This document shows, one piece after another, positions 1 to 64,000 of a stretch of DNA of 64,000 nucleotides. The first letter of the stretch is position 1. Each line of letters begins with the position of its first letter. A program made the position numbers and the translations under genes. The DNA comes from Janibacter terrae NBRC 107853 (GTDB lineage Bacteria; Actinomycetota; Actinomycetes; Actinomycetales; Dermatophilaceae). A model generated the notes under the pieces. That model saw nothing but the letters and a program-made list of their open reading frames with translations, ran no database searches and was not told where the DNA came from. Location of the stretch: contig NZ_BCUV01000007.1 of assembly GCF_001591405.1 (NCBI RefSeq), forward strand, positions 682,001 through 746,000. The letters run 5' to 3'.

Positions 1-1012
1 CGAGCACGACTCCCGCGCCGAGGAGTGCGCCGCGCGCGTCGAGGTGCCCGAGGATCCCGCGCGTGAGCGCCACGCCCAGCAGCAGGAGGATGACGAAGAC
101 GAGCAGGTGCTCGAGCCGGTTGACGAACTCGTGCATGTGGCGGTGGTAGACGTGGTCGCGGTCCGCTGACCGGATGGTCATCGCCGTCACGAAGACGGCC
201 AGGAACCCGTATCCCCCGAGGAGCTCGCTGGCCCCGTAGGCGGCCAACACGGCGGCCAGCGCGAAGGTCGGCTCTCCCAGGTCAGCGGTGCGTACCGCCG
301 GGTTCGGGGCGCGGAAGGCGAGCTTGGCCAGCAGCCACCCGGCCGCGACGCCCACGACGACCCCCACCGCCACCTTGCCGACGAGGTCCCAGAGGAGCCA
401 GCGCGGCCCCCAGTCGGACACGGCACCGGCGGTGAGCATGAGGATCGCCGCGTGGACGAAGGGGAAGGCCAGCCCGTCGTTGAGCCCTGCCTCCGAGGTC
501 AGGGCGAAGCGGACCTCGTCGCGCTCGTCGACCGGGGAGTCGTCGGTCTCCACCGCCGGCCCCTCCACCTGCACGTCGCTCGCGAGCACGGGATCGGTGG
601 GAGCGAGCACGGCACCCAGCAGGAGCGCGGTCGCGGGCGCGAGCCCACCGACGGTCCACCCGAGCAGCGCCACCGCGCCGATGGTCAGCGGCATCGTCAC
701 CAGGAGCAGCCCCCACGTCGCCCCCCAGGCTCGGAAGGTGCCCGGCCGACGCAGGGACAGCGGGCGGTCCAGGGCGAGACCCACGCCCATGAGCGCCACG
801 AGCACGGTGAACTCGGTGACGTGCTCGACGATCACCCGGGAGTCCACGGGGTCGAGATTGGCGCCGTCGGGCACGGGCAGCAGGCCGATGGCCATGCCCA
901 GACCGATCAGCACCATCGGCGCGGAGACGGCCAGCTTCCGAGTCAGGCCCGGGAGGACGACGGCGACGAGGAGGGCCAGCCCCGCGACGAGGAACGCGGC
1001 ATCGGCAGGCAT
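1..1012 (-). CDS. Na+/H+ antiporter, CPA1 (NhaP) type, 3' end cut by window edge
   Basis: Predicted integral membrane exchanger of monovalent cations for protons, acting in pH and sodium homeostasis. About 337 residues are visible from the ATG at 1012, and the frame is still open at base 1. The translation is a chain of hydrophobic segments with the hallmark APTDPVLA and AGLNDGLAFPF stretches; the Asn-Asp pair is typical of electroneutral CPA1 exchangers. The start begins MPADAAFLVAGL. A TAATGT hexamer lies exactly six bases upstream, so the mRNA is probably leaderless and the gene has its own promoter, separate from the nucleotidyltransferase gene upstream. The C-terminal regulatory part is outside the window. 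Family assignment is firm; ion preference is inferred. Confidence 0.88.
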   Translation of the reverse strand, partial: MPADAAFLVAGLALLVAVVLPGLTRKLAVSAPMVLIGLGMAIGLLPVPDGANLDPVDSRVIVEHVTEFTVLVALMGVGLALDRPLSLRRPGTFRAWGATWGLLLVTMPLTIGAVALLGWTVGGLAPATALLLGAVLAPTDPVLASDVQVEGPAVETDDSPVDERDEVRFALTSEAGLNDGLAFPFVHAAILMLTAGAVSDWGPRWLLWDLVGKVAVGVVVGVAAGWLLAKLAFRAPNPAVRTADLGEPTFALAAVLAAYGASELLGGYGFLAVFVTAMTIRSADRDHVYHRHMHEFVNRLEHLLVFVILLLLGVALTRGILGHLDARGALLGAGVVL

Positions 1013-1018
1013 GGACGT

Positions 1019-1024
1019 ACATTA
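1019..1024 (-). promoter_or_regulatory. -10 element of leaderless antiporter mRNA
   Basis: TAATGT on the minus strand, six bases before the ATG at 1012. No ribosome binding site fits between them, so transcription should start at or next to the A of the start codon. Confidence 0.5.
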
Positions 1025-1074
1025 CGGCGCTGCGGCGCCCCGGACTGCACGTGGCGCCACGCGACGCGTCCCGG

Positions 1075-1629
1075 TCACGGCAGGTGGTCGACGTCCTCCC
1101 CGGTCGCCAGGTCGCCGCACTCGACACCGACGGCGCCGTGCCGTCGCAGATACGGGCCGGCCCCCCGGTCCCCGGAGAGCCCGGCGACGAGCGGGCCCCA
1201 GTGGTCCCGGCCGACGAGCACCGGGTGCCCGACCCGCCCGCGGTACACCGCTCGACGCAGGGTGCCGGCGTCCACGTGCGACGCCAGCAGCCGTCGCGCC
1301 ACCGCCGCGGTGACGTCCGGCAGGTCCACGAGGTGGATGAGGACGGCGTCCGCGTCACCGTCGTCGAGGGTGCGCAGCCCGTGCGCCAACGAGGTGCCGA
1401 GGCCCTCTGCCCAGTCGGGGCAGTGCGTGTACGTCGTCCTCGGCAGCGTCGGCCCGACCGGGCCGCCGGCGCCCAGGACGACGGTCGTCGCGGCGCAACC
1501 CCCTTCGTCCAGGACGGCGACCGCCCGGGCCAACCACGATGTGCCGTCCGGGTCGGTCATGAGGGCCTTGGGCCGGCCCATCCGACGGCCCGCCCCGGCC
1601 GCGAGCACGAGCCCGTGGACGGTCGTCAC
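1075..1629 (-). CDS. MobA/MocA-like NTP transferase
   Basis: 184-residue nucleotidyltransferase with a GT-A Rossmann fold. The N-terminal signature VLAAGAGRRMGRPKAL is the nucleotide-binding loop of the MobA/MocA (CTP:molybdopterin cytidylyltransferase) family, and HLVDLPDV resembles the metal-binding D-x-P segment of these enzymes. The start is GTG at 1629, 28 bases after the stop of the HAD-PlsC gene on the same strand, so the two may be cotranscribed. No molybdenum enzyme genes are visible nearby, so the substrate (molybdopterin, or a sugar or other nucleotide acceptor) cannot be assigned. Confidence 0.8.
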   Translation of the reverse strand: MTTVHGLVLAAGAGRRMGRPKALMTDPDGTSWLARAVAVLDEGGCAATTVVLGAGGPVGPTLPRTTYTHCPDWAEGLGTSLAHGLRTLDDGDADAVLIHLVDLPDVTAAVARRLLASHVDAGTLRRAVYRGRVGHPVLVGRDHWGPLVAGLSGDRGAGPYLRRHGAVGVECGDLATGEDVDHLP

Positions 1630-1657
1630 GTGCGCCGGCCCCCGACCGTGCGCCCAC

Positions 1658-3097
1658 TCATCCCCCGTCCCCGTCCCCGTCGACCGCGTACCAGCGGTCC
1701 TCGTCGGGCACGCGCCCGTCCGGGTAGCTGCGGGCCAACTCGGCGAGCGTCGGGCGGGGCGGCTGGCGGACCTCGTCCGGCAGCAGCGCGGTGATGGCGT
1801 CGAAGACCCGCTCCATGTCGCGCGCCACGGATCGGCGCTTCAGCTCCACCGGCTCGCCGAAGGTCACGGTGACCTCGGGCCGCCGGAGCACCTGGGTGAC
1901 CCGGGGCAGCCTCGACGAGCGCGGCCAGACCTGCTCGGTGCCGGTGATGGCGAAGGGGATGACGGGCACCTTGGTCAGCTGGGCCAGGCGCGCTGCGCCG
2001 GGGTACCCGGACATGCCCGGCTCGAAGAAGTCGATGCCGCGCGGGATCGTGCCCTCGGGCATCATCGCGACCAGCTCGCCGCCGGCGAGCGCGCGGACCG
2101 CGGCCGCGAAGGCGTCCGGGCTGTCCGGGTCGTCCCCGCGGCGGTCGACGCTGATGCCGCCACCTGCTCGGAAGAAGGCACCGAGGCCGGGGACGTCGAA
2201 GAGCTCCTTCTTGCCGAGGAACCGGGCGGAGCGGCTCGTGCGCCCCATGGCCACGAGCATCGCCATGGCGTCGAAGTACGAGCGGTGGTTGCCGACGAGG
2301 ATCGCCGGCCCGACCCTCGGGACGTTGTCGACGCCCCGGATGGAGAACCGAGCGTAGGGGAAGAGCTCGGGGCGGGCGAGCAGCGCGAGGCTGCGCTGCA
2401 GCTCCAGGCCGATGACGGGCAGCTTGAAGACGCCGGGGGAGGTGTCGAAGTGCAGGACGGGCCAGCGGGCGGCCACCGCGAGCGCCTGCAGGCGAGGGTC
2501 CGGGTTGACCGCGCCCGGGTTGCCGACCGCGCGCAGCAGGGGCGCGTCGTAGATCGAGTCCGAGTACGCGAAGGACGCGTCGAGGTCGACGCCCTGCTGC
2601 TCCGCCCAGTCGCGCACGGCGGCGATCTTGCCCATCGACCACACGAAGTGCCCGTCGTGGCGGCCGGTGAAGCGGCCGTCCTCCCCCACCTCGTACCGGG
2701 TGGCGATGACGGCATCGATGCCGAGGCGCTCGGCGAGCGGCCGGACGAGGTGCTCGGGCGTCGTCGTCGCGAGGACGACGAGCCGCCCGGCGTCGTGGTG
2801 CTCCTCGATGAGCATCCTGGCGAAGGGCCCGACGAGCGGCTCGAGCACGTCGGCCGCGACCTCCGCGGCCTCGTCGAAGGCGTCGGCCGCCCGGCCGCGG
2901 GCGACGTGGACGGCTTGCCGGGCGAGGGCGATCGAGCCGAGGGACTCCCCGAGGAGGTTGAAGTACCCGAAGACGAGCGACTCGCCCGGCAGCCGGGCCG
3001 AGACGACCCCCGTCTGCCGCATGGCCGCGGACAGGGCGGGCCCGGAGGCCTTGGGCAGGAGGGTGCGGTCGAGGTCGAAGAACGCGGCGGCCGTCAT
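1658..3097 (-). CDS. HAD-IB hydrolase fused to 1-acylglycerol-3-phosphate acyltransferase (PlsC-like)
   Basis: 479 residues with two catalytic domains. Residues ~1-220 are a SerB-like HAD phosphatase (motif FFDLDRTLLPK at the N-terminus, SDSIYDAPLL near 185). Residues ~235-450 are a glycerolipid acyltransferase with NHRSYFDAM (the NHx4D catalytic motif) and MPEGTIPRG (the EGT substrate motif). The same fusion is known in mycobacteria and other actinobacteria and is thought to make and then dephosphorylate phosphatidic acid or a related lipid at the membrane. The ATG at 3097 lies seven bases after TAGCCT, a leaderless arrangement divergent from the next gene. Exact lipid substrate unknown. Confidence 0.88.
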   Translation of the reverse strand: MTAAAFFDLDRTLLPKASGPALSAAMRQTGVVSARLPGESLVFGYFNLLGESLGSIALARQAVHVARGRAADAFDEAAEVAADVLEPLVGPFARMLIEEHHDAGRLVVLATTTPEHLVRPLAERLGIDAVIATRYEVGEDGRFTGRHDGHFVWSMGKIAAVRDWAEQQGVDLDASFAYSDSIYDAPLLRAVGNPGAVNPDPRLQALAVAARWPVLHFDTSPGVFKLPVIGLELQRSLALLARPELFPYARFSIRGVDNVPRVGPAILVGNHRSYFDAMAMLVAMGRTSRSARFLGKKELFDVPGLGAFFRAGGGISVDRRGDDPDSPDAFAAAVRALAGGELVAMMPEGTIPRGIDFFEPGMSGYPGAARLAQLTKVPVIPFAITGTEQVWPRSSRLPRVTQVLRRPEVTVTFGEPVELKRRSVARDMERVFDAITALLPDEVRQPPRPTLAELARSYPDGRVPDEDRWYAVDGDGDGG

Positions 3098-3159
3098 GCG
3101 CTCGAGGCTAACGGCGGATCCCCCGCCGGAGCGGCCCCGCGGGGCCTAACGTGGGTCAC
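3098..3159. promoter_or_regulatory. Divergent pair of leaderless promoters
   Basis: The 62-base divergent spacer carries TAGCCT on the minus strand (3105-3110) seven bases before the ATG at 3097, and TAACGT on the plus strand (3147-3152) seven bases before the ATG at 3160. Both genes are therefore likely leaderless and read outward from this spacer. Confidence 0.6.
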
Positions 3160-3822
3160 ATGAGCGACGACGCCCAGACCCTGTCCAGCAGCCATGTCGC
3201 CGAGGCCGCCCCGCGGGGGTGGCGCGAGATCGACGGCACCCTCCGCACCCGCCTGCGCACCGCGGACTACCCGGCCGCGGTCGAGCTCGTGACCCGCATC
3301 GCCCGGGTCGCCGACGCCGCCGACCACCACCCCGACATCGACCTGCGCTACAACTGGGTCGGGCTGCTCCTCGTGAGCCACGACGTGGGTGGCCTGACCA
3401 GTCGCGACCTCCAGCTGGCGGGCGAGATCTCCCGCATCGCCGAGGAGCTCGGGGCCGAGCACGACCCGCACGTCGTCGTCGCGATGACCATCGGCATCGA
3501 CACCGCGGACGCGAGCGCGATCCGTCCCTTCTGGCAGGCCCTCACCGGGCACGAGCCGGCGAAGGGGGACCCGGACGTCCTCCCTTCGCCCGACGGGCAG
3601 CTGCCGCAGATCTGGTTCCAGGAGAGCGCACCGCGCGAGGTCCGCAACCGGCTGCACCTCGACGTCTACATCCCCCACGACATCGCGCAGGAGCGCGTCG
3701 ACGCGGCCATCGCGGCGGGCGGGCGTCTCGTCACCGACGAGTTCGCGCCGGCGTGGTGGGTCCTCGCCGACGCCGACGGCAACGAGGCCTGCGTGTGCAC
3801 CTGGCAGGACCGGCGGGACTGA
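3160..3822 (+). CDS. 4a-hydroxytetrahydrobiopterin dehydratase fused to a VOC/glyoxalase-like domain
   Basis: 220 residues from the ATG at 3160; an upstream in-frame GTG at 3151 overlaps the -10 hexamer and is rejected. Residues ~15-105 match pterin-4a-carbinolamine dehydratase: DAADHHPDIDLRYN holds the catalytic His pair and SHDVGGLTSRDLQLA is the usual C-terminal half of that fold. Residues ~110-218 look like half of a vicinal-oxygen-chelate domain (WFQESAPREVRNRLHLDVYI, then an AAGG turn and a final WQD). The fusion recurs in actinobacteria. No aromatic amino acid hydroxylase lies nearby, so the substrate is open. Confidence 0.82.
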   Translation: MSDDAQTLSSSHVAEAAPRGWREIDGTLRTRLRTADYPAAVELVTRIARVADAADHHPDIDLRYNWVGLLLVSHDVGGLTSRDLQLAGEISRIAEELGAEHDPHVVVAMTIGIDTADASAIRPFWQALTGHEPAKGDPDVLPSPDGQLPQIWFQESAPREVRNRLHLDVYIPHDIAQERVDAAIAAGGRLVTDEFAPAWWVLADADGNEACVCTWQDRRD

Positions 3823-3831
3823 GCAGCGCCG

Positions 3832-3857
3832 GGACGAAGGGGGGACCCCCTTCGTCC
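3832..3857. terminator. Bidirectional hairpin built from two copies of the CGAAGGGGG motif
   Basis: Perfect 12-bp inverted repeat, arms 3832-3843 (GGACGAAGGGGG) and 3846-3857, between two converging genes; its last base is the first base of the minus-strand stop codon at 3857. It has no clear U-tract, like many actinobacterial terminators. Each arm contains one copy of the dispersed 9-mer. Confidence 0.65.
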
Positions 3858-4681
3858 TAGTGCCGGCCCCTGCCCTCGAAGGCCCGCGCGGCCGCGGTCG
3901 CGGCCGGCAGCCGTGAGGACCTCATGCCCGGTCCGAGCCGGCGCAGCTGGCTCGAGGTGACCCGGGTCCCCTGCTCCATCACGGTGTCGGCGGCCGCTCG
4001 GGCCCCACCGGTCCCGGTGTACTCCTGCTGCCCGTTGCTCCCCCAGCGCACGAGGATCTGGCCGAGGTCCTTCGCCGTCGCGACGTAGAAGACGAAGCTG
4101 TCGTAACCGCCACCGGTGGGTGCGGCGCTCGAGCGGGTCCACCGCTTGCCGTCCCAGCCGATGACGAAGCCGAGGTTGGCGGTCGCGGGGAGCACGTCGT
4201 CGACGACGCCCCACCAGCTCGGGCCCTGCCCCAGGAGGGCCTGGCGGTTGCGCTTCTCGGCCGCGGCGTCACGGCGGGTGTCGGGGTTACTCTGGCCGGC
4301 CAGCACCGCCCGCCCGTCCTTGAGCCGCACGAGGTAGCCCCACTGGCCGATCTCCATCTCGTAGACCCAGTCGCCGTCGGTGGCGCGGGGTCCGGTGCCC
4401 CCCTCGGAGACCCCGGCGCCGACCCACATGGCGGCATAGGCCGCCCACCGGTTGCGCAGGTCGTCCGGCGAGGCCAGGTCGACGGGGACCATCGAGGCGG
4501 GGCCGGACGGGCTCGGCGCCTCGTCACCGCCGGATCCCTCACTCGGGTCGCTACCGCCCGCGGGCGTGTGCGTCGTGGACCCGATCTCCACCGGGGGCTC
4601 GTCCTCGGCGCAGGCGGTGAGCGCGGTGGATCCGGCAGCACCCAGTGCGGCCAGCAGGGCACGGCGGGAGATCTGCTCCAC
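3857..4681 (-). CDS. Lipoprotein of unknown function with RR-type signal peptide
   Basis: 274 residues from GTG 4681, chosen because GGAGGA lies four bases upstream and the frame then opens directly with a signal peptide: ISRRALLAALGAAGSTALTAC, with a twin-arginine-like pair and a lipobox ending in the lipidated Cys. A Gly/Ser/Pro-rich linker follows (~28-65). The rest (~70-274) is a globular exported domain with several conserved-looking Trp residues (WGYLVRLKDG, WWGVVDDVLP, GWDGKRWTRS). I do not recognise the family. The gene converges on the pterin dehydratase gene and diverges from the lipoprotein array on the other strand. Confidence 0.75.
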   Translation of the reverse strand: MEQISRRALLAALGAAGSTALTACAEDEPPVEIGSTTHTPAGGSDPSEGSGGDEAPSPSGPASMVPVDLASPDDLRNRWAAYAAMWVGAGVSEGGTGPRATDGDWVYEMEIGQWGYLVRLKDGRAVLAGQSNPDTRRDAAAEKRNRQALLGQGPSWWGVVDDVLPATANLGFVIGWDGKRWTRSSAAPTGGGYDSFVFYVATAKDLGQILVRWGSNGQQEYTGTGGARAAADTVMEQGTRVTSSQLRRLGPGMRSSRLPAATAAARAFEGRGRH

Positions 4682-4764
4682 GGGTCCTCCTTGCGGGTCT
4701 CGGGACGACGATACGGGCCGGGCCTCGCGAGCGAGGGCACGGCCCGCGTGAGAACCTTGGGCCC

Positions 4765-5511: not shown

Positions 5512-6260
5512 CCTCTCGCACCCGAGCCACCCCCTTCGCGCTCACGGCCGTCGCCGCCCTCGCCCTGACCGCCTGCGGCGGCGACGCCCAGCCGGCCGCC
5601 TCGGGCACCTCGGGCGAGGTGACCCCGAGCAGCAGCGCCACGACGGTCGAGGAGCTCACCGCGCCGGAGCAGCAGCAGCTCACCGCGGCGGAGATCAAGC
5701 GGGCGCTGCCGACGCGTGAGGAGGCCCCGCGGGGCTTCGTCCAGGACACCAGCGGGTTCGACACCCGCCGGGCGAGCCAGCGCCGGGCCGACCCGCAGGC
5801 CTGCCTGGCCGTCTTCCTCGACACCCCGCAGATGCGCACCTGGAAGTCGGAGCACCTCGCCGACGGCGAGGGCGTGCGCTACACGCGCAACAGCGGCGAG
5901 GACGACTCGGTCGGCCAGCCGAGCATCTCCGTCGCGGTCTACAGCTACGACGAGGCCTTCCCGACGCGCTTCCTCGACGAGGCCGGTGCGGCCCTCGCCG
6001 ACTGCGCGACCTTCCGCACGGCCGTCTCGCCCGGCTCCGAGATGAGCGACTGGTCCGCGACCAACATCCAGACGCCGGTCCTCGGCGAGCAGAGCCTCGG
6101 GGTGCGGGCGGGCTCGCGCGAGCTCGACTCCGCCATCGACTACCTCTGGGTGCGCAGCGGCCACAACCTCGTCCACGTGCGCATGCTCACCGGGTTCCGC
6201 GCGGACAACTCGGACATCCTCCAGGAGTACGCCGAGGGCGTCCTCGACGACCTGGCGTGA
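5508..6260 (+). CDS. Lipoprotein, paralogue 2 of the array
   Basis: 250 residues starting inside the stop of the preceding gene (ATGA at 5508). The signal peptide ends in AALALTACGG. The mature part repeats the array pattern: DPQACLAVFLDTPQ, SVAVYSYDEAFPTRFLDEAG, LADCATF, VLGEQSLGVRAG and RSGHNLVHVRML. Closest by eye to paralogue 1 (same TAPEQQQLTAAEIKRALPT opening after the linker), which suggests a recent duplication of this pair. Anchored to the outer face of the membrane; ligand unknown. Confidence 0.8.
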   Translation: MTSRTRATPFALTAVAALALTACGGDAQPAASGTSGEVTPSSSATTVEELTAPEQQQLTAAEIKRALPTREEAPRGFVQDTSGFDTRRASQRRADPQACLAVFLDTPQMRTWKSEHLADGEGVRYTRNSGEDDSVGQPSISVAVYSYDEAFPTRFLDEAGAALADCATFRTAVSPGSEMSDWSATNIQTPVLGEQSLGVRAGSRELDSAIDYLWVRSGHNLVHVRMLTGFRADNSDILQEYAEGVLDDLA

Positions 6261-7016: not shown

Positions 7017-7732
7017 GACGCCCCCTTCGCCCCGCCGCGGCGCTCGCCGCGCTCGCCCTCGTCCTCCCCGGCTGCGGCCTCGTCGACGACCCGCAGCCCG
7101 CGGAGGACCTCGGGACGCTCACGGGGGCCGGTCGACCGCTGGACGAAGGGGGCCTGCGCAGCGCCCTCCCGTCCCCCGGCGACCTCGGCGACGGGTGGGG
7201 CGCGGACCCGGCCGGCACGCTCTTCGAGACGCGGGCCGCCGAGGTCACCCCGTCCTCGTGCGCCCCGCTCGTGCTCAAGGGGCCCGGCTGGGACGAGGTG
7301 CAGCAGACCAGCCGCGGGCGGGCCCAGGCCAACTTCGCCGCGAGCGACAACCAGCCCCCGCCGGGCACGCAGCGCCGCCACGTCGCGGTGTGGGCCTACT
7401 CCTACGACGAGCCGTACCCGGTGCGGCTCTTCGACGAGGCGGGCGCCGAGGTCGCGGACTGCTCGCAGTTCAGCATCGTGCAGCGCGACACCGGCAACAG
7501 CAGCGCGTACGAGGCCGACGCGCTGACCTTCCCCGCGCTCGGCGACCGCACCCTCGCCCTGCGCCTCACGATCCACCAGACGATGGAGACGCTCACCATG
7601 GACTTCGTCGCCGTCAAGGTCGGTCACAACACCTTCACGGTCGTCAACGGCACGTACAACGGCACCCCCGACACCGCGCTCACCGAGCGCACCGCCCGCG
7701 CGACCCTCGACGGGCTCGAGGAGGCGTCGTGA
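7013..7732 (+). CDS. Lipoprotein, paralogue 4 of the array
   Basis: 239 residues from GTG 7013, which overlaps the preceding stop (GTGA). Signal peptide ends ALVLPGCG. Array landmarks are kept: TPSSCAPLVL (Cys 1), VWAYSYDEPYPVRLFDEAG, VADCSQFSIV (Cys 2), ALGDRTLALRL and VKVGHNTFTVVNG. Two copies of the dispersed 9-mer (7021, 7144) lie within its first 140 bases in different codon phases. Function unknown. Confidence 0.8.
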   Translation: MRRPLRPAAALAALALVLPGCGLVDDPQPAEDLGTLTGAGRPLDEGGLRSALPSPGDLGDGWGADPAGTLFETRAAEVTPSSCAPLVLKGPGWDEVQQTSRGRAQANFAASDNQPPPGTQRRHVAVWAYSYDEPYPVRLFDEAGAEVADCSQFSIVQRDTGNSSAYEADALTFPALGDRTLALRLTIHQTMETLTMDFVAVKVGHNTFTVVNGTYNGTPDTALTERTARATLDGLEEAS

Positions 7733-8463
7733 GGATCCTGCCCGCGACCGTCGCCGCGCTCACCTGCCTGGTGCTCTCGGGGTGCGTGACCCCCTTCGCC
7801 CCCGAGCGGACGTCCACCGCACCGTCCACGACGTCGACCTCGCCCGTGCCGCCACCCGACCCCGGGCTCGAGCGGGCCGGCCGTGAGCTCACCCGCGACG
7901 AGGCCGAGGCGGCGCTGCCCCCGCTGCCGAAGGGCGCGACCGAGCAGCCCTCCGACACCGGCGCCGAGCAGCGCACCTCCGACCCGGCCGAGTGCGTCGA
8001 CGTCCTGCGCCTCGGCTGGCACTACCGCAACCTGCGGCAGCAGCGGGCGAGCCAGGCCAACCTCAGCTGGTCCGAGGGCACGGGCGACGCCCTGCGCACC
8101 ATGTCGGTCAGCATCACCTCGGTGACGCGCCCGGTCGGCCCCGGCATCCTCACCGCGGCGGGCGAGGCGGCCGGCGGCTGCGCCACCTTCTCCCTCTACG
8201 GCCGGGACGAGCTCGGTGACTTCGACCTGCGGCTGCTCACCGAGCCGCGCACCATCTCCCCGGTCGGCGAGCAGGCCTTCGCGGTGCGGGTGACGACCTT
8301 CGACCGCGTGGGCGGGAAGACCGCCCGGGTCCACATCGACCAGATGAGCTACCGCGTCGGCCACAACCTCGTGACGGTCCAGCAGGTCGGCACCGACGAG
8401 TCCCTGACGATGGAGCCCGTCGAGCAGCTGGCCGCCGACGTCCTCGCCCGTCTCGAGCAGTAG
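7729..8463 (+). CDS. Lipoprotein, paralogue 5 of the array
   Basis: 244 residues from GTG 7729, overlapping the stop of paralogue 4 (GTGA). Signal peptide ends CLVLSGCV, followed by a Thr/Ser/Pro linker to ~45. The mature domain keeps the two cysteines ([11 protein letters not shown] and GGCATFSLY), [11 protein letters not shown] and [12 protein letters not shown], but lacks the SYDE segment and is the most diverged member. It is the last gene of the array. The transglutaminase gene that follows has its own leaderless promoter, so cotranscription is not implied. Confidence 0.78.
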
Positions 8464-8511: not shown

Positions 8512-11500
8512 GTGACCATCCGCGTAGCCCTCGAGCACCGCACCTCCTACGAGTTCTCCGAGCCGGTCCGGGTCTACCCGCACACCATCCGGCTCCGGCC
8601 GGCACCGCACTCGCGCACGCCGATCCCGAGCTACTCCCTGCGCATCGAGCCCGAGGGCCACTTCCTCAACTGGCAGCAGGACCCCTTCGGCAACTGGCTC
8701 GCGCGCGTGGTCTTCCCCGAGCCGGTCCCCCGGCTCGAGATCACCGTCGACCTCGTCGCGGACATGACGGTCATCAACCCCTTCGACTTCTTCGTCGAGG
8801 ACTGGGCGGCGACCTACCCCTTCGCCTACCCGGAGCAGCTGCGCAACGACCTCGCGCCGTACCTCACCCCGGTGGACGACGGGGGCGAAGGGAGCGGACC
8901 GGCGCCGGGCGTGAGCGCCTGGCTGGAGGAGCGGCTGCCGTCGCTGCTCACCGCCCCGCGGGACGCGGCCGCCGGGGAGGGCACGCGGATCGTCGACTTC
9001 GTCGTCGCGCTCAACCGCGCGATCCGGGAGAGCGTCGACTACACCGTGCGTCTCGAGCCGGGCGTGCAGACGCCGCAGCACACGCTCGACCGGGGCATCG
9101 GCTCCTGCCGCGACAGCGCCTGGCTGCTCGTCTCCGCGCTGCGCCAGCTCGGGCTCGCGGCGCGCTTCGTCTCGGGCTACCTCGTGCAGCTGACCGCCGA
9201 CCTGAGCGCCGTCGGCGACGACAGCCTCAACGGCCCCGCGCAGGACTTCACCGACCTGCACGCGTGGGCCGAGGTCTACATCCCCGGCGCCGGCTGGGTC
9301 GGGCTCGACGCGACCTCCGGCCTGCTCTGCGGCGAGGGGCACATCCCGCTCTCGTGCACCCCGCACCCGACCTCCGCGGCGCCGATCAGCGGCGCGACGG
9401 CTCCGACCGACGTCACCTTCGGCTTCAGCAACACCGTGACCCGGATCGCCGAGGACCCGCGCGTCACCAGGCCGGTCTCCGAGGACGACTGGGCCCGGAT
9501 CAACGCGCTCGGTGCGGCCGTCGACGGCCTGCTCGCCGACGGTGACGTGCGCCTGACGATGGGCGGCGAGCCGACCTTCGTCGCGGCCGGCGGCACCAAG
9601 GACCCGCAGTGGCACACCGCCGCCGACGGCGAGGAGAAGCGACAGCTCGCCATGGCCCTCGCCCGCCGCCTGTCGGGGCCGGGCACGCTGCGCCACCACG
9701 GCCAGGGCAAGTGGTACCCGGGCGAGCCGCTCCCGCGCTGGCAGATCGCACTGGCCTCCCGGGCCGACGGGGAGCCCCTGTGGCGCGACCCCGACCTGCT
9801 CGACGACCCGTGGGGGCCGGCCCGCGAGTCGTCCGACGCCCCCGAGGCCGTGGGGGCCGCGCGCGACCTGGCCCTCGGCATCGCCCGCCGGCTCGGCGTC
9901 CCGCCGGAGCAGCTCGTCCCGGCCGTGGAGGACCCGCTCCAGCGGCTCGTGCTCGAGGCCCGCCGCCCGGACGGCGCGGCGCCCACCCCCGGTGACCTCG
10001 CGCCCGACGCCGAGGAGGTCTCCGACGAGGCCCGGCGCGCGGCCGCCCTCGCGGCCGTCGACACCGCGGCCGACCCGGACACCCCGGCTGCGTGGGTCCT
10101 GCCGATCTTCCCCGCGCCCGACGGCGAGGGCTGGGCGACGACGACCTGGCGCACCCGGCGCGGCTTCCTCGCCCTGGTGCCCGGCGACTCCCCCGCCGGC
10201 CTGCGGCTGCCGTTGTCCTCGATCTCGTGGACGGAGGGGCCGACGACACCGGAGCGCTCCCCCTTCGAGCCCCGCGGAGCGCTGCCCGCGCTCGACCCGG
10301 CCGCGCTGGAGCCGGTCGACGTCCCGCCCGCCCGCGTCCTGCCGATCGACGAGGCGCCGCGCACGGCGCTCGCCGTGCAGCACCGCGACGGCCACCTCTT
10401 CGTCTTCCTGCCGCCCGTCGAGGCCTTCGAGGACGCGCTCGAGATCGTCAGCGCGGTCGAGGGCGCGGCCGCTGAGGTCGGACACCCGGTCGTGCTCGAG
10501 GGCTACCCCCTGCCCGGTGACGACCGCGTCCGCACGATGTCGGTGACGCCCGACCCCGGCGTCATCGAGGTCAACGTGACCCCGACCGCCTCGTGGCCCG
10601 AGCTCGTCGAGCAGACCGAGGGCCTCTACGAGCACGCCCGCCAGATCCACCTGTCGACGGAGAAGTTCGACCTCGACGGCTCGCACACCGGCACCGGCGG
10701 CGGCAACCACCTGACGCTCGGCGGCCCGACCGCGGCCGACAGCCCGATGCTGCGCCGCCCCGACCTGCTGCGCTCGCTCGTCACCTACTGGCAGCACCAC
10801 CCGGCCCTCAGCTACCTCTTCTCCGGGCGCTTCATCGGCCCGACCTCGCAGGCGCCACGCGTCGACGAGGGCCGGGCGGACACGCTCTACGAGCTCGAGA
10901 TCGCCTTCGCGCAGCTCGAGCACGTCATCGCGTTGGAGCACGACGAGAGCGCGATCACCGACCCGCTCGACGAGGACCACCGGGCCAGGCGCGGCACCCG
11001 CCCCTGGCTCGCCGACCGGCTGCTGCGCCACCTGCTCACCGACATCACGGGCAACACGCACCGGGCCGAATTCTGCATCGACAAGCTCTTCGCCCCCGGC
11101 ACGGAGCGCGGGCGTCTCGGGCTGCTCGAGATGCGCGGCTTCGAGATGCCGCCGCACCCGCGGATGGCGTTGCTCCAGGCGCTCCTCGTGCGCTCCCTCG
11201 TCGCCCGCTTCTGGGTCGAGCCGTACACCGCGCCCCTCGTCCACTGGGGCACGCGGCTGCACGACCGGTACCTGCTGCCGGCCTTCGTCGCCGCCGACCT
11301 GCGCGATGTCATCGACGACGTCAACCGCTACCTCGAGCGTGTCGGCGCCGGACGGATCGACCCGGCGTGGTTCGACGCCTTCCTCGAGTTCCGCTTCCCG
11401 CGGCTCGGCGACACGGTCATCTCCGGCGTCGAGCTCGAGCTGCGCACGGCGATCGAGCCGTGGCACGTGCTCGGCGAGGAGGTCAGCCAGTTCGGCACCG

Positions 11501-45224: not shown

Positions 45225-45962
45225 CAGCCCGGCGTCGCGCAGATCTGGTGCGAGCTGGCCAGGGGGGAGCTCGAGCTGTCGGAGGGCCGGTCGGCCCAGG
45301 CGGCCGAGCGGCTGACCTTGCTCGTGACCCGGCTGGACGAGCTCGGGGTCGGCGACGCGAACCTCGACCCCGGGCCGGACCTCGTGGACGCGCTCCTGCG
45401 CGTGGGTGAGGTCGAGGCCGCCACCCGCGCCGCCCGGCGCTACGCGAGCGTCGCCGGCCCCGACGCCCGGCCGTGGACCGTGGCGCGCGTGCAGCGGGCG
45501 CTCGGGTTGGTCGCCCCCGACGAGGCGTGCGACGCCCCCTTCGCCCTGGCGCTGGTGTCCCATGCCAGGACACGGGACACCTTCGAGGCGGCCCGGACCC
45601 GTCTGGCGTAAGGGATGAGGCTGCGCCGCGCGGGGCGTCGCGTCGATGCCCGCCCGGTGCTGCGGGAGGCGCTGTCGACCTTCGAGGACCTCGGGGCCGG
45701 GCTCTGGGCGGAGAGCGCGCGGGTGGAGCTGGCCGCGACCGGCGAGCGCGTGCCGCCCAGGGCACCGACGGGCCCGGACTCGCTCACGCCGCAGGAGCTG
45801 CAGGTGTGCCTGCTGCTGGCCGACGGGAGGACGACCCGCGAGGCCGCGGCCGCGCTCTTCCTCAGCCCCAAGACCATCGAGTACCACCTGCGCAAGGCGT
45901 ACTCGAAGCTGGCCATCCACTCACGGCAGGAGCTCGGCGAGGTCCTGGCCGACCTCGGGTGA
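45225..45962 (+). pseudogene. C-terminal remnant of a LuxR-family (LAL-type) regulator with nonsense mutation
   Basis: Continuous homology-like frame of ~245 codons. The first part (AQIWCELARGELELSEG to RDTFEAARTRLA) is the TPR-like end of a large ATP-binding LuxR regulator; the second part (GMRLRRAGRRVDARPVLREAL, then LTPQELQVCLLLADGRTTREAAAALFLSPKTIEYHLRKAYSKL) is the usual junction and GerE DNA-binding domain. They are in the same phase but separated by TAA at 45609-45611, where family members have Tyr (a TAC to TAA change would explain it). The N-terminal ATPase is absent. A 115-residue fragment from ATG 45615 could still be made. Confidence 0.75.
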
Positions 45963-55757: not shown

Positions 55758-56674
55758 GGGGCGAGTTCGGGGAAGGGCACCCCGGTGAGCTCCTCCGAGA
55801 CCTCCCACAGCCGGCGCATCACCTCCGGGTCCCGCGACCCGCGGGAGGAGCCGACCGCCACCGGACGGCCACGGAACTCGCGAAACCCGCTCGGACCGTA
55901 GTACTCGCCGCCGACCGCGGCCGGGTCGGTCGCGGCGCGCAGGATCGGCAGGGCCCCCTTCGCCGCGCTCTGCCCGACGAGCACGTTGCCTGCCGCGACC
56001 AGGGGACGGGCCGGGGCGGGCAGGTGTCGGGCCAGGGCGGTCCGGGAGAGCCCGGGGTGCGCGGCGAGCGCGATCGTCCCCGCCCCGGCCTCGGACAACC
56101 GCCGCTGCAGCTCATGGGTGAAGAGCAGGTTAGCCAGCTTCGAGCGTCCGTAGGCGCCCATCGGGTCGTAGCCCCGCTCGGACTGCAGGTCGTCGACGTC
56201 CAGACGACCGCCCCCGAACCGGTGCGCGAGGCTCGACACCGTCACCACGCGCGACCCCGGCGTCACCAGCAGCCGCTCGAGCAGGAGCGCGGTGAGCGCG
56301 AAGTGGCCCAGGTGGTTCGTGCCGACCTGCAGCTCGAAACCGTCCGCCGTCACGCCGTGCGGGGTCATCATCACCCCCGCGTTGTTGACGAGCAGGTCGA
56401 TCCGCTCGTGCCGGTCGCGGACCTCCCGCGCGGCCACGCGCACCGAGTCCAGCGACGACAGGTCCAGGCGCACGACCTGCGCGCGCTCGAGACCGGCGGC
56501 GACGGCCTCCCCCTTCGCCGTGTCCCGGCAGGCGAGGACGACGTGCGCGCCCCGCGCGGCGAGCTCACGGGCGGTGACGGCGCCCAGCCCCGAGCTGGCC
56601 CCGGTGACCACCACGGTCCGGCCGGTCTGGTCGGACATGCGGTCGAGGGACCAGGCGTCGCGGGTGCGTGTCAT
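55748..56674 (-). CDS. Short-chain dehydrogenase/reductase, retinol-dehydrogenase-like
   Basis: 308 residues from ATG 56674; Met at 56638 (MSDQTGRTVVVTG) is an equally reasonable start. Classical SDR: cofactor loop TGASSGLGAVTARELA, LVNNAGVMM, catalytic Ser (VVTVSSLAHRF) and YxxxK (GAYGRSKLANLLF). The long C-terminal part (GEYYGPSGFREFRGRP) fits the retinol dehydrogenase-like bacterial group. Its stop codon lies inside a fragment of the REP-like repeat, so the C-terminus may have been altered by repeat insertion. Confidence 0.88.
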   Translation of the reverse strand: MTRTRDAWSLDRMSDQTGRTVVVTGASSGLGAVTARELAARGAHVVLACRDTAKGEAVAAGLERAQVVRLDLSSLDSVRVAAREVRDRHERIDLLVNNAGVMMTPHGVTADGFELQVGTNHLGHFALTALLLERLLVTPGSRVVTVSSLAHRFGGGRLDVDDLQSERGYDPMGAYGRSKLANLLFTHELQRRLSEAGAGTIALAAHPGLSRTALARHLPAPARPLVAAGNVLVGQSAAKGALPILRAATDPAAVGGEYYGPSGFREFRGRPVAVGSSRGSRDPEVMRRLWEVSEELTGVPFPELAPAP

Positions 56675-56991
56675 GGGGCCAGCCTGCCAGTCACGCTGGA
56701 CCCGTCCCGTGCGTCAGTGGGCTGAGGCACAGCGACGAGGGGCTCGCGCCGCAGGCGAGGGTCACGGCGGACGCGGCCGCGATCGCCACCGGCACCCCGG
56801 AGCGGATCGACGGGCGAAGGGAGATCGCCGTGCTCGATCGAAGGGGGCGTGGTGCGGGGCGTCACCTTCCGCGCCGACCCCGAGGTGCTCGGTCGCGTCA
56901 CCCGGCGGGAGGACCTGCGCCGCCGGCCGGTCACATCCGCGCTCCCCCGGTCGTCACCACCACGAGAGACCCCACCACGAGAGGACCGACG
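56675..56991. other. 317-base spacer with a possible broken gene fragment
   Basis: No intact gene fits. Two overlapping plus-strand phases give plausible protein-like text: VTADAAAIATGTPERIDGRREIAVLD (from about 56749) and, in another phase, GVVRGVTFRADPEVLGRVTRRED (from about 56847). The phase change falls at the 9-mer copy 56839-56847, as if a small gene had been frameshifted there. The 3' part holds a short direct repeat (ACCACGAGAG twice). Confidence 0.3.
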
Positions 56992-57100: not shown

Positions 57101-57658
57101 ATGACGAACCCGCAGGGGGCGTCGGGGCACACCGTCCTGCAGCTCCCGGTCCCACCCCTGGAGGCCTGGGTCGTCGAGCGCACCGCCCACCACGACGCCG
57201 GGTTCGTCTCCACGGACCCGGCGTTCGGCCACGCGCACATCACGGCGCTGGCCCCCTTCGCCCCCGCACCGACCCCGGACCAGCTCGCCACGGTCGCCGC
57301 GATCGCGGCCCGGACGGCGCCGATCACGGTGCGGCTCGACGAGATCGACCAGTTCCCCGACGGCATCATCCACCTGCGCCCCGAGCCGGACGCCCCGCTG
57401 CGCGCCCTCACGGCGGCCCTCACCGCTGCCTTCCCCGCGTTCCCTCCCTACGAAGGGAGGTTCGGTCGCGTCCCCGTCCCGCACCTCACCCTCGACGCGG
57501 CCCGCGACGGAGTCTCGATCGCCTCCACCCGACGTTCGCTCGGCCACCTGCTGCCGGCCGCCTGCACGCTCGCCGAGCTGCAGCTGGCCTGGTGGGAGAG
57601 CGGCCGCTGCCACGTCGTGGAGCGCTGGGACCTGGAGGGCTTCCCCCCTTCGTCCTGA
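57101..57658 (+). CDS. 2'-5' RNA ligase family protein (2H phosphoesterase)
   Basis: 185 residues with the two catalytic HxT motifs of the 2H superfamily, HAHITAL near 45 and PHLTLD near 127, symmetrically placed in LigT-like halves. Members open or form 2',5' or cyclic phosphodiester bonds in RNA or nucleotides. Followed ten bases later by the Rrf2 regulator operon. Its last codons (PPSS) come from a 9-mer copy at 57644. Confidence 0.85.
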   Translation: MTNPQGASGHTVLQLPVPPLEAWVVERTAHHDAGFVSTDPAFGHAHITALAPFAPAPTPDQLATVAAIAARTAPITVRLDEIDQFPDGIIHLRPEPDAPLRALTAALTAAFPAFPPYEGRFGRVPVPHLTLDAARDGVSIASTRRSLGHLLPAACTLAELQLAWWESGRCHVVERWDLEGFPPSS

Positions 57659-59460: not shown

Positions 59461-60058
59461 CGCCCGGTCCCTCCAGGTCGGGCAGCGCGGCGGACCGGCC
59501 CGAGATGACCATGAGCAGCGCGAGCGCGGGGCCGCGCACCTCGGGCCCGTCGCCGATGGACAGGTCCAGGTCGGTGGCGTGCAGGGTGACCCGCTCGGCG
59601 CGCTGCCGGCCACCGCCCAGCCCCTGCGAGACCCGCGCCTGGTAGCGCAGCGCCCGCTCGACGGCCTCGGCGGAGTAGTCGTGCCAGATCCCGAGCGGCC
59701 GCCGGATGTCCTCGCCGTGGAGCACCTCCTCGACCAGCCGGCTGTCGACGGGAGCCGGCGGGCCGGTCCGCCGCGCCGCGACCTCACGCAGCCCGCTGAG
59801 CGTCTCGCGAGGGGTGACGCCCCGGTGACGTTCCATGCCCCGCTGGTTCTGCCGGTCGAAGTCGCCGCGCGCCCGCACCATCGCCCACACCACCCCGAAG
59901 GGGGTCGCCCGCGCGTTGTCGACGAGGTGGGCCGCGACGTCGTGGACGCTCCACCCCTCGCAGAGCGAGGGCTGGAGCCACTGCTCCTCGGTGAGTCGCT
60001 CGAGGTCGTCGGCGAGGGCGGCCCGCTCGGCGTGGACCAGTTCCCAGACATCGGTCAT
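59444..60058 (-). CDS. Maleylpyruvate isomerase-fold protein (mycothiol-type)
   Basis: 204 residues. DinB-like fold of the actinobacterial group: LCEGWSVHDVAAHLVDNARATP near 35 (metal His), LVEEVLHGEDIRRPLGI near 115 and VTLHATDLDLSIGDGPEVRGPALALLMVISGR at the end, a strong family signature. Presumed thiol-dependent enzyme. It starts three bases after the stop of the upstream membrane-protein gene, so they form an operon. Confidence 0.84.
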   Translation of the reverse strand: MTDVWELVHAERAALADDLERLTEEQWLQPSLCEGWSVHDVAAHLVDNARATPFGVVWAMVRARGDFDRQNQRGMERHRGVTPRETLSGLREVAARRTGPPAPVDSRLVEEVLHGEDIRRPLGIWHDYSAEAVERALRYQARVSQGLGGGRQRAERVTLHATDLDLSIGDGPEVRGPALALLMVISGRSAALPDLEGPGVSLLG

Positions 60059-60060
60059 GG

Positions 60061-60906: not shown

Positions 60907-60999
60907 GGGCACACCCAACCGACATTTCCGGGCCACGGCAAGCACATCGACGGGGGAGGTCTCCCCCTTCGTCCGCACGTCGCCACACCCGTGCGAACC

Positions 61000-61160: not shown

Positions 61161-62843
61161 ATGCCGACGCAGCCGCCCCTGGGCATCGCGACCATCATCC
61201 TGCTGCTCCTCCTCTTCTACGGACTGACCATGGTCATGTCGATGAGGATCAGCCGAGGCAAGGAGAACGCCGACGAGTACATGACAGCCGGGCACAACAT
61301 CGGCTTCGGCATCTCGGCGGCCTCGATGACCGCGACCTGGATCTGGGCGTCGTCGATGTACGCGTCCGTGACCTCCGGCTACACGTACGGCATCTCCGGG
61401 CCCATCCACTACGGGCTGTGGGGCGCGCTAATGATCCTCTTCATCTACCCCTTCGGCCGGCGGATCCGCCGGGTCGCGCCCCACGCGCACACCCTCGCCG
61501 AGGTCATGCGCGCCCGGCACGGCCGCTCCAGCCAGCTGATGCTCGCGATCTCCAACGTGCTCGGCAGCGTCATCTCGCTGATGTCCAACTTCATCGCGGG
61601 CGGCGCCCTCATCTCGATGCTCTCTCCGATGAGCTTCATCCAGGGCGTGCTGATGATCGCCGCCGGCGTGCTGCTCTACACCGTCTGGTCCGGGTTCCGC
61701 GCGTCCGTCCTCACCGACTTCGCGCAGGTCGTCGCGATGCTGCTCTCGGTCGTCGTCCTCGTGCCGGCCTTCTTCTTCGTCCTCGGCGGCCCCGACCTGC
61801 TGCGCGAGGGCGCCGGCAACCTCACCCAGCAGCAGTCGAGCTTCTTCTCCTCCGAGGCCTTCCTCGGCCAGGGCGCCCCGTACATCGCGGCCGTCCTCGC
61901 CTACGCCATCGGCAACCAGACGATCGCCCAGCGCCTCTTCGCGGTGCGCGAGGACCTCATCAAGCCGACCTTCATCACGGCGACCATCGGGTACGGCGCG
62001 ACGATCATCGGCATCGGCATGATGGGAGTGCTCGCCCTCTACGCCGGCATCACCCCGGCCGGCGGCGACCCCAACAACCTGCTGCCGCAGATGGCCGCCT
62101 CGCACCTCGCGACGCCGCTCATCGTCATCTTCTTCGTCATGATCATCGGCTCGCTCTCCTCGACCGCCGACTCCGACCTCGCCGCCCTGTCGTCGATCGT
62201 CATGACCGACATCTACGGGGAGCGGGCCCGCCGCGGCGGCACCGTCAACCCGGCGACGATGCTGCTCATCGGGCGCCTGACGATGGTGGTCGCGACGGTC
62301 GCCGCGGTGCTCTTCGCCGCGCTCGAGCTCAACATCCTCGACCTGCTCGTCTTCGTCGGTGCGATGTGGGGCTGCCTCGTCTTCCCCGTCATCGCCTCCT
62401 TCTACTGGACCCGGGTCACCAACTCGGCCTTCACCGTCTCCGTGCTCGTCGCCTTCGTCGTCTTCCTCCCGGTCCGCTTCTCCTGGCTGCCGCAGTCCGG
62501 GGCGCTCGACCTCGCGATCGACGTCATCGGCATCATCGGCGCCGGGATCGTCATCGGGCTCATGGCCTTCGGCTTCTTCGGGGCACGGGCCGGGATCACG
62601 ATCGGGACGGTCTTCGCGGTGGGGGTCGCCCCCTTCGCCATCGGGGTCATCTCGCAGCACCCGGCCCTGTCCGGGTCGCTCAGCGCCTATGCCGTCTCGA
62701 CGATCGTCTGCGTCGTCATGTCGCTGCGGTCGCGGCAGGCGCCCTTCGACTTCGCGCTCATCGCGGGTCGCACGAGCGACTTCACCGACGACGAGGTCGC
62801 GACCGAGCACGACGACCCCGACCTCCAGCCCGCCCGCGCCTGA
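61161..62843 (+). CDS. Sodium:solute symporter (SSS family), DUR3/urea-like
   Basis: 560 residues from ATG 61161 (GGAAGGAAGG upstream), 13-15 membrane segments. SSS core: ADEYMTAGHNIGFGISAASMTATWIWASSMY, TLAEVMRARHG, TVWSGFRASVLTDFAQVV, IGSLSSTADSDLAALSSIVMTDIY and YAIGNQTIAQRLFAVRED are closest in style to the DUR3-like urea/purine-type group, so substrate remains open (urea, nucleobase or organic acid). A CRP/GlxR-like site upstream suggests catabolite control. A 43-aa accessory gene follows after 15 bases. Confidence 0.88.
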   Translation: MPTQPPLGIATIILLLLLFYGLTMVMSMRISRGKENADEYMTAGHNIGFGISAASMTATWIWASSMYASVTSGYTYGISGPIHYGLWGALMILFIYPFGRRIRRVAPHAHTLAEVMRARHGRSSQLMLAISNVLGSVISLMSNFIAGGALISMLSPMSFIQGVLMIAAGVLLYTVWSGFRASVLTDFAQVVAMLLSVVVLVPAFFFVLGGPDLLREGAGNLTQQQSSFFSSEAFLGQGAPYIAAVLAYAIGNQTIAQRLFAVREDLIKPTFITATIGYGATIIGIGMMGVLALYAGITPAGGDPNNLLPQMAASHLATPLIVIFFVMIIGSLSSTADSDLAALSSIVMTDIYGERARRGGTVNPATMLLIGRLTMVVATVAAVLFAALELNILDLLVFVGAMWGCLVFPVIASFYWTRVTNSAFTVSVLVAFVVFLPVRFSWLPQSGALDLAIDVIGIIGAGIVIGLMAFGFFGARAGITIGTVFAVGVAPFAIGVISQHPALSGSLSAYAVSTIVCVVMSLRSRQAPFDFALIAGRTSDFTDDEVATEHDDPDLQPARA

Positions 62844-62858
62844 CCTCTGGGAGCCCGC

Positions 62859-62990
62859 ATGTCCATCACCGCACTCACCGCCTACATCCTCGTCTGGCCC
62901 GTCGTCGTGGCCGTCGTCCTCACCGTCATCTGCGTCGCCTTCTACAGGGCGTGGCGGGCGGCCAGGGACGAGGGACGCGACATCATCTGA
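62859..62990 (+). CDS. Small symporter accessory protein, 43 aa
   Basis: 43 residues: MSITALTAYILVWPVVVAVV then a second half ending WRAARDEGRDII, i.e. one membrane helix and a charged C-terminal tail. Start ATG 62859 with GGGAG eight bases upstream, 15 bases after the SSS symporter stop. Tiny one-helix proteins in this place are known companions of sodium symporters in actinobacteria. Probably stabilises or modulates the symporter in the membrane. Confidence 0.75.
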   Translation: MSITALTAYILVWPVVVAVVLTVICVAFYRAWRAARDEGRDII

Positions 62991-63026
62991 CGGGTCACCG
63001 GCCCCCGCGTCGGGTATGACAGGACC

Positions 63027-64000
63027 ATGCGACGCAGCAGCCCCGACGAGCCCGGCATCCGCCGGCGACGCGCCGGACGGGGGTTCACGTACGTCCACCC
63101 CGACGGGCGCCGGGTCGGCGCCGAGGTACGCGCCCGCATCGAGGACCTCGTCATCCCTCCTGCCTGGCAGGACGTGTGGATCTGCACCGACCCCGACGCC
63201 CACCTCCTGGCCACCGGCGTCGACGCCGCCGGCCGGACTCAGTACCTGTACCACCCGCGGTGGCGCGAGCAGCAGGACCGGGACAAGTTCGACCGGGTCC
63301 TCACCCTCGCGCCGGCCCTGCCCACCCTGCGTCGTGCCGTGCGCGCCGACCTGCGGTCACCGGGGCTGACCCGCGCTCGCGTCACCGGCCTGGCCCTGTG
63401 GTTGCTCGACACCGGCCGGCTGCGGGTCGGGTCGACCGCGTACGAGGCGGAGCACGGGTCGCACGGGGCCACCACACTGCTCACCGAGCACCTCCACGAC
63501 CGCGGCGACGGCGTCCTCCTCGAGTTCCCGGCGAAGGGGGGCCAAGCCGCCTCGGTCGCGGTGCAGGACGAGGACGTGACCCGGACCCTGCGCGGCCTGC
63601 GCCGCGCCGGTCGTCGCGGCGAGCACCTCATGCGCTACCGCGAAGGGGGCGAGCGCCACGACCTCGCCCCACGCCACGTCACCGACCGGTTCGTCGAGCT
63701 CGTCGGCGAGGAGCACACGGTCAAGGACCTGCGCACGTGGGCGGCGACCGTCACCGCCGCAGAGGCCCTGGCGCGCGCCGCCCGCGGCGGTGGCGACCCC
63801 GACGACATCGAGCGCGCGGCGTTGCAGGCCGCCGCGGACTCGCTCGGTGACACCCTCACGGTCGCCCGCGAAAGCTACGTCGACCCACGCGTCCTGGCGG
63901 CGCACCGCGCGGGGCGCCACGTCCGGCCCACGCGGGGCCAGCCGCTCGAGCACAGCGACACCGTGCGGCGACGGGTCGAGCGCGAGCTCGTGGCGCTGCT
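63027..64000 (+). CDS. DNA topoisomerase IB, 3' end cut by window edge
   Basis: About 324 residues visible from ATG 63027; TATGAC lies six bases upstream. Poxvirus-like type IB topoisomerase that relaxes supercoils through a 3'-phosphotyrosine. Landmarks: RGFTYVHPDGRRV, IPPAWQDVWICTDPDAHLLATGVDAAGRTQYLYHPRWREQQDRDKFDRV in pieces (catalytic Arg region), LDTGRLRVGSTAYEAEHGSHGATTLL, VTDRFVELVGEEHTVKDLRTWAA (His), and TVARESYVDPRVL, which carries the active-site Tyr. Only the extreme C-terminus is missing. Confidence 0.92.
   Translation, partial: MRRSSPDEPGIRRRRAGRGFTYVHPDGRRVGAEVRARIEDLVIPPAWQDVWICTDPDAHLLATGVDAAGRTQYLYHPRWREQQDRDKFDRVLTLAPALPTLRRAVRADLRSPGLTRARVTGLALWLLDTGRLRVGSTAYEAEHGSHGATTLLTEHLHDRGDGVLLEFPAKGGQAASVAVQDEDVTRTLRGLRRAGRRGEHLMRYREGGERHDLAPRHVTDRFVELVGEEHTVKDLRTWAATVTAAEALARAARGGGDPDDIERAALQAAADSLGDTLTVARESYVDPRVLAAHRAGRHVRPTRGQPLEHSDTVRRRVERELVAL

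Follow-up and report, generated by a model that had tools for sequence, protein, structure and literature searches.

The 9-base word CGAAGGGGG is most likely a DNA uptake word of Janibacter that works like the DUS and USS of other bacteria. DNA bearing this word would be favored by competent cells for binding and import, and the recognition would probably take place at a Tad/Flp-type pilus or at another surface protein that passes DNA on to ComEA and ComEC. Imported conspecific DNA would recombine its words back into the chromosome, and it is proposed that for this reason they accumulate at tolerated sites and are preserved despite mutation. Its sister genera in the family would recognize different words as dialects, namely CGGCATAC, CGGCATCC and possibly CGGCGTAC. 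The dialect pattern, together with the ComEA/ComEC and Tad genes, is best fitted by a DNA uptake word.

To our knowledge, no uptake or transformation assay has been reported for Janibacter, and none was found in the literature searched. According to a 2025 paper, Neisseriaceae and Pasteurellaceae are the only groups with known DUS or USS. We lean towards the broader view that the family around Janibacter is the third lineage, and the first Gram-positive one, with independently evolved sequence-specific DNA uptake. This system would comprise at least three dialects (CGAAGGGGG, CGGCATAC and CGGCATCC) and a Tad-pilus or ComEA-linked receptor, with DNA exchange partitioned between genera by vocabulary. 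If this is true, uptake words arose again, in Actinomycetota, without the type IVa pilus or the outer membrane of the known cases. The several words of the family would then offer a natural series of word changes for the receptor search, and the origin of uptake words, both its causes and its mechanism, could be tested directly in many genera.

Abundance of the word in the window and in the genome

The window is the whole stretch of DNA analyzed, 64,000 nt of Janibacter terrae NBRC 107853 (NZ_BCUV01000007.1, positions 682,001-746,000 of the forward strand, assembly GCF_001591405.1). The commonest 9-mer of the window is CGAAGGGGG/CCCCCTTCG, with 46 exact copies when both strands are counted (19 forward and 27 reverse). 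The expected number is 2.0 copies from base composition and 0.9-2.7 from Markov models of orders 1-4, and single-base variants of the word occur at most 9 times each. The initial annotation had reported 44 copies, split 19 to 25 between the strands, against about two expected from composition. The expectation, the roughly 20-fold excess, the presence on both strands and the forward count were reproduced, and the total and the reverse count are revised to 46 and 27. The over-representation is real and larger than was stated there.

All copies given here are exact matches. Single forward-strand copies are located at 3560-3568 (in a predicted gene), 7144-7152, 19116-19124, 21359-21367, 22579-22587, 25353-25361, 28501-28509, 31189-31197, 32729-32737, 35988-35996 (in a lactate permease gene), 41492-41500, 47060-47068, 56839-56847, 59896-59904, 63532-63540 and 63641-63649. 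Single reverse-strand copies are located at 1499-1507, 5530-5538, 7021-7029, 7790-7798, 10259-10267, 16832-16840, 21269-21277, 25140-25148, 27125-27133, 28676-28684, 29459-29467 (in a glutamate-dehydrogenase-like gene), 31111-31119, 34120-34128, 35795-35803 (in the lactate permease gene), 41146-41154, 45535-45543, 51998-52006, 53819-53827, 55954-55962, 56509-56517, 57252-57260, 57644-57652, 60963-60971 and 62629-62637. The remaining copies form three inverted pairs, described below.

The whole genome of the same strain (3.58 Mb) carries 1,797 copies (905 + 892), compared with 22 copies (14 + 8) of the reversed control word. A chromosome-scale sample was taken as 20 stretches of 20 kb from one complete Janibacter chromosome (G008). 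Most single-base variants in this sample are near expectation, and CGAAGGGAG (89 copies) and CGAAGGGGA (52 copies) are enriched about nine-fold.

Distribution in Janibacter and related genera

The word was found in all 16 Janibacter genomes searched, at 797-1,860 copies each, where the reversed control gave 12-30. Each of the 62 genomes searched from elsewhere in the family and order holds 74 copies or fewer, and a density comparable to that of Janibacter was absent from 395 other Actinomycetota genomes. The excess is limited to the genus, and other words are present in sister genera: CGGCATAC in 17 of 32 family genera and CGGCATCC in 7 of 119 family genomes, from three genera. Both show a coding excess similar to that of CGAAGGGGG in the genomes sampled, and these sister words would do the same job. 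A strong word was not found in 80-100 kb of four sister genomes (G016, G023, G025 and G029). When pieces of the window (25 kb each) were searched against plasmid and phage collections, no Janibacter record was returned. In line with the initial annotation, no described function for the word was found in the literature among the matches listed, and the exact-string matches listed were primer-like.

Placement in coding and intergenic DNA

Genes were predicted with a purpose-written script based on codon usage in place of a standard gene finder. By this prediction, 35 window copies are coding (0.59 per kb) and 11 are intergenic (2.36 per kb), so that the intergenic density is about four times the coding density. 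The 35 coding copies compare with 4.7 (sd 2.1) in 60 synonymous-codon shuffles and with 3.8 (sd 1.4) in 30 such shuffles. An excess over synonymous shuffles was also measured as 154 versus 26.1, and overall the coding copies stand 6-9 fold above the shuffled level. The coding copies lie at codon offset 1 in 22 cases, offset 2 in 10 and offset 0 in 3. These data agree with the earlier claims that the word occurs in both coding and non-coding DNA and is explained neither by codon usage nor by a single codon phase; all three phases do occur, as claimed, and their distribution is uneven. A weak bias of coding-strand copies toward the first third of genes was also observed.

Conservation of word sites

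Sites of the word are conserved somewhat above controls, to a moderate degree. Site conservation over 41 sites was 0.47 (bootstrap 0.35-0.59), compared with 0.30 for random 9-mers (p 0.003). Third positions within the sites were conserved at 0.88, compared with 0.62 for codon-matched positions. An earlier set of 31 sites was mixed, its two regions giving 0.65 and 0.29 (control 0.30), and many sites are polymorphic between species. The figures for the 41 sites replace pooled pairwise values, in which the non-independence of species pairs had inflated the effect.

Orientation, inverted pairs and alternative explanations

The orientation of the word is balanced. The sampled chromosome holds 116 forward and 108 reverse copies (strand heterogeneity p 0.66), and the best co-orientation over any split is 0.567, compared with a null mean of 0.574. 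Counts per 20 kb are near Poisson (mean 11.2, variance 11.7), and the spacing of copies is no more even than random (CV 0.86, KS p 0.12). Neither an orientation with replication, as in a Chi-type strand bias, nor an orientation switch at the origin or dif was found in this one chromosome.

Close pairs are almost always inverted. The sample contains 20 inverted pairs and 1 same-strand pair, where random placement gives 3.6 of each, and the window contains 3 inverted and no same-strand pairs. Two of the window pairs are intergenic hairpins, one at 3835-3854 (copies from 3835 forward and 3846 reverse, 2-base loop) and the other at 42814-42837 (42814 forward, 42829 reverse, 6-base loop). The third lies at 16375-16413 (16375 forward, 16405 reverse, 21 bases between) within a photolyase-like gene at 15978-17327. 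All of the pair members are exact matches.

Among the functions suggested in the initial annotation, the uptake-like word is best supported, by genus-wide enrichment, dialects, balanced orientation, inverted pairs and conservation. The main rival, by which CGAAGGGGG is the Chi recombination hotspot of the Janibacter RecBCD, is unlikely. Described Chi words are strand-biased, and the absence of such a bias weakens this reading. The word does resemble the Chi of RecBCD/AddAB as a G-rich 9-mer over-represented across the genome, and RecC passed the cut-off in 15 of the 16 Janibacter genomes; the one without a hit is 79% complete. Absence of RecC would have excluded a RecBCD Chi, and its presence therefore keeps the rival alive. 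However, the word forms paired hairpins and changes at genus level, and RecC occurs without CGAAGGGGG in 7 of the 20 further family genomes tested. Among those 20 genomes, only 1 of 9 CGGCATAC carriers has RecC, although CGGCATAC could differ in function.

Even spread and balanced orientation would also suit a site of a chromosome-organizing or nucleoid protein unrelated to transformation. This explanation is improbable and ranks below Chi; a change of word between related genera, inverted hairpin pairs and a density of more than one copy in 2 kb are atypical of sites of this kind. Less probable again is a spread of the word by a mutational drive that involves no uptake receptor, such as biased repair or gene conversion. 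The sharp core of the word and the polymorphism of many sites are compatible with such a drive, but the preference for intergenic DNA and tolerated frames and the inverted pairs suggest a bound site. We also know of no mechanism by which drive makes a non-palindromic 9-mer.

Intergenic enrichment and hairpins could point to transcription terminators or REP-like repeat elements, and the word string is found within a REP-like repeat in Rhodanobacter-type MAGs. Nevertheless, 189 of the 270 copies in the window and the chromosome sample lie inside predicted genes, 203 of the 224 sampled words have no partner when pairs are counted up to 60 bases away to one side, and the flanks show no conservation beyond a weak preference, which makes this explanation very unlikely for the word as a whole. 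A terminator role for the minority of copies in hairpins is compatible with the uptake-word explanation. The Rhodanobacter-type repeats (L056, L094 and L064), which hold many copies of the string, were set aside as a different thing: they are inverted repeats arranged in tandem between genes, and their flanks are conserved. The G-rich composition of the word would also suit a polar, KOPS-like guide sequence for FtsK, but the sampled chromosome showed no orientation switch, and this role, already doubted in the initial annotation from the near-equal orientation, is hardly credible.

Competence machinery and the comEC prophage

If CGAAGGGGG is an uptake word, Janibacter cells would take up DNA and read the word during uptake. 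The comEC gene was found in all 16 Janibacter genomes (partial in the window strain), comEA in all 14 tested and the tad ATPase in each of 78 relatives. Candidate small pilin-like Tad proteins are present in the tad neighborhoods; the receptor may be one of these or another surface protein. A pilT-type retraction ATPase gave no pilT_fam match above the cut-off in the 16 Janibacter genomes. DNA uptake with comEA, comEC and Flp/Tad pili is described for Micrococcus luteus (PMC6370729).

ComEC and Tad are equally frequent in genera without the word, and this machinery therefore does not explain which genera have it. As discriminators, pilT, comEC and the tad ATPase failed to separate word-bearing from word-less genera, as did the tad neighborhoods of 20 family genomes, a comparison in which the script missed the ATPase in several loci.

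In the window strain, comEC is interrupted by a tandem prophage, yet the genome keeps its high word count. This one prophage carries 8 copies, compared with 22 at the genome rate (p 0.0005) and about 1.2 by chance; the depletion is thus only partial. The portal family PF04860 revealed no prophage in any of the 16 Janibacter genomes, which is no proof of absence because the prophage of the window strain has another portal family. Viral contigs with relatives of the prophage terminase (the best 80 of 166; 1.08 Mb) held 15 word copies and 12 control copies, indicating no enrichment there.

Comparison with known repeated words

The Janibacter word is similar to the DUS of Neisseriaceae, whose receptor is ComP. 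Both are short and enriched on both strands, with dialects, inverted pairs (linked to terminators in Neisseria), permissive placement and conservation (PMC3630211 and PMC2397512 for the DUS). The word itself differs, the host is a Gram-positive member of Actinomycetota, and the uptake role in Janibacter is a prediction. Janibacter also differs from the known DUS/USS systems in having Tad genes in place of a pilT_fam match.

The USS of Pasteurellaceae likewise has a 9-base core in about a thousand or more copies and a reading-frame bias (PMC2346458 for the latter). It is another word in another host group, and its receptor is only predicted (PMC12616744). The positional bias in Janibacter is weak and falls on the first third of genes, in contrast to both gene ends for USS. 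HIP1 of cyanobacteria is palindromic and methyltransferase-linked, whereas the Janibacter word is non-palindromic. HIP1 is also a highly repeated genome word, with an uncertain role (PMC4390886).

Copy number and distribution of the word

Forty-six exact copies of the 9-mer CGAAGGGGG/CCCCCTTCG (19 on the forward and 27 on the reverse strand) were counted in the window, against 2.0 expected from composition and 0.9–2.7 from Markov models. The strong enrichment reported by the initial annotation is confirmed, and its count of 44 is corrected. The enrichment extends to the whole genome (G000; 3,576,202 bases, 11 contigs), with 905 forward and 892 reverse copies versus 14 and 8 for a control, the word read backwards.

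The word was present at 797–1,860 copies, nearly equally on both strands, in each of the 16 Janibacter genomes searched (control, 12–30), compared with at most 74 copies in 62 related genomes (32 others of the family and 30 of the order). Among 395 other genomes of the phylum, the top count was 204 in 8.6 Mb (control 118 there) and the densest genome noted carried 126 copies in 2.0 Mb (control 19), versus 1,797 in 3.6 Mb in G000. Among 116 loci listed for close inverted word pairs in named genomes, 43 belonged to Janibacter or Marihabitans. The bearer genus is Janibacter, with Marihabitans counted among the bearers. In Rhodanobacter-type MAGs (loci L056, L064, L094), CGAAGGGGG was seen inside arrays of REP-like intergenic repeats.

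Anatomy and placement of the word

The complete chromosome of another Janibacter (G008), sampled as 20 stretches of 20 kb, contained 224 copies. The core is sharp in this sample, yet CGAAGGGAG (89) and CGAAGGGGA (52) are each about nine-fold enriched too. Their enrichment (L020, L246 and other Janibacter loci) suggests that one of the final two positions tolerates A. Upstream, G is weakly preferred at −2 (169/224) and C is disfavoured at −1.

Coding copies numbered 154 versus 26.1 (sd 4.8) after synonymous shuffling in the G008 sample, and 35 versus 4.7 (sd 2.1) in the window. Intergenic density per kb was 1.76 versus 0.43 in coding DNA (G008) and 2.36 versus 0.59 (window). In both, the copies within genes favour certain frames and use the coding and the other strand equally (74 versus 80; 16 versus 19). 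Neighbours no more than 60 bases apart were inverted in 20 cases and co-oriented in one, with 3.6 of each under random placement. Six of the 20 G008 pairs lie in genes, nine between tandem, three between convergent and two between divergent genes.

Conservation of word sites

Forty-one word sites were compared in 41 orthogroups common to at least four of seven Janibacter genomes. With the finder left out, the exact word was kept in 0.47 of other species (bootstrap 0.35–0.59), versus 0.30 for random 9-mers (p 0.003). Third positions of synonymous codons inside words were identical in 0.88 of pairs, which are non-independent, versus 0.62 for the same codons elsewhere. An earlier 31-site set was mixed: the kept fraction was 0.65 for the lactate region and 0.29 for the comEC region, against a control of 0.30. 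Thus, word sites are on average retained more than expected, with high turnover.

Enriched words of sister genera

Ten other genera of the family were searched for enriched words, in 80–100 kb each. CGGCATAC was enriched in G030, G018 and G040, CGGCATCC in G041 and CGGCGTAC in G038; no strong word was found in the stretches from G016, G023, G025 and G029. Such words, CGGCATAC above all, occur at loci L183–L186, L203–L206, L215–L218 and others. The palindromic GGCGTACGCC of G039 (L191–L194, L172; 26 copies in 100 kb versus 1.3 expected) may be another kind of word.

CGGCATAC was then counted in the whole genomes of 32 other members of the family, one per genus. More than 900 copies occurred in 17 of them (939–4,724; its reversed control is itself elevated in the bearers), while the count was intermediate in three (196–293) and at background in 12. 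CGGCATAC was also at background in all 16 Janibacter (9–38) and in 30 order genomes (2–167, the top value equalling its control). Of 119 family genomes, seven, all from three genera, had high CGGCATCC counts (2,099–4,480), and in G016 the count was intermediate over a high background (1,336). In coding DNA, sister words exceed synonymous shuffling to a similar degree (for example, 61 versus 11.2 in G041 and 27 versus 3.0 in G018). Most copies of the G030 word are intergenic, with an extended conserved flank (20/29), so in this genome the word may in part be a repeat element. Four hairpins of the TTTCGGGGTSACCCCGAAA form were seen in 100 kb of G016 (L167, L219–L222).

Possible function of the word

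The word probably works like an uptake word. This putative function is proposed because a genus-wide word, other words in related genera, balanced strands, inverted pairs, over-representation in tolerated coding frames and a moderate degree of conservation match the features of the Neisseriaceae (DUS) and Pasteurellaceae (USS) uptake words given in PMC3630211, PMC2397512, PMC5031613 and PMC2346458.

The main rival is that the word is the Chi recombination site of RecBCD; 15 of the 16 Janibacter genomes encode RecC. However, the G008 sample argues against Chi-like polarity. Strand use is homogeneous (p 0.66), and counts per 20 kb have a mean of 11.2 and a variance of 11.7. Co-orientation was scored over every split by two breakpoints, with no origin or terminus assumed; the best value was 0.567, under the null mean of 0.574, and equal replichores gave 0.536. 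The same data argue against an FtsK-orienting (KOPS) role, bearing out the doubt of the initial annotation.

Returning to the uptake-like reading, DUS and USS are associated with type IVa machinery, which was sought and not found in Janibacter (pilT_fam gave no match above cut-off). The word is therefore not judged a member of either group, and uptake and a receptor are putative only. Among the titles listed from open-access literature, none reported this word, Janibacter competence or transformation, or uptake words in Actinobacteria or the family; a 2025 paper gives such words as known from two families only.

Competence genes and the prophage in comEC

comEC is present in 16/16 Janibacter and 75/78 relatives, and the Tad ATPase in 78/78, adjoined by small Flp-like and TadE-like proteins in Janibacter and many others. 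comEA adjoins comEC in 13 Janibacter other than G000 and in 6/6 other family genomes tested. The comEA genes of two of these Janibacter (G004 and G007; L156, L159) matched in two frames, through a frameshift, a variable linker or sequencing error. The DNA uptake parts described for Micrococcus luteus in PMC6370729 are also present in Janibacter, and equally in genera where no word was found. The comEC/comEA/Tad genes alone cannot account for the word.

In G000, comEC is split: the downstream part lies at 461–462.5 kb of contig C6, and the upstream part, with comEA, at 551.5–553 kb. Between them, at C6:462485-551440 (L153, L246–L249), lies a 44,497-base prophage in two tandem copies that match at 44,494 positions and carry genes for a large serine integrase, terminase, portal, protease and tape-measure protein. 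The tandem arrangement may be genuine or may stem from the assembly. A single copy contains 8 words versus 22.4 at the genome rate (p 0.0005) and about 1.2 by chance; related phage loci showed no word enrichment (15 versus 12 for the control in 1.08 Mb). DUS is missing from recently acquired Neisseria genes, according to PMC2397512, whereas the Janibacter word is partially depleted in the prophage; the depletion fits an uptake word, but is partial. Any loss of competence in G000 would be recent, because 1,797 copies are still there.
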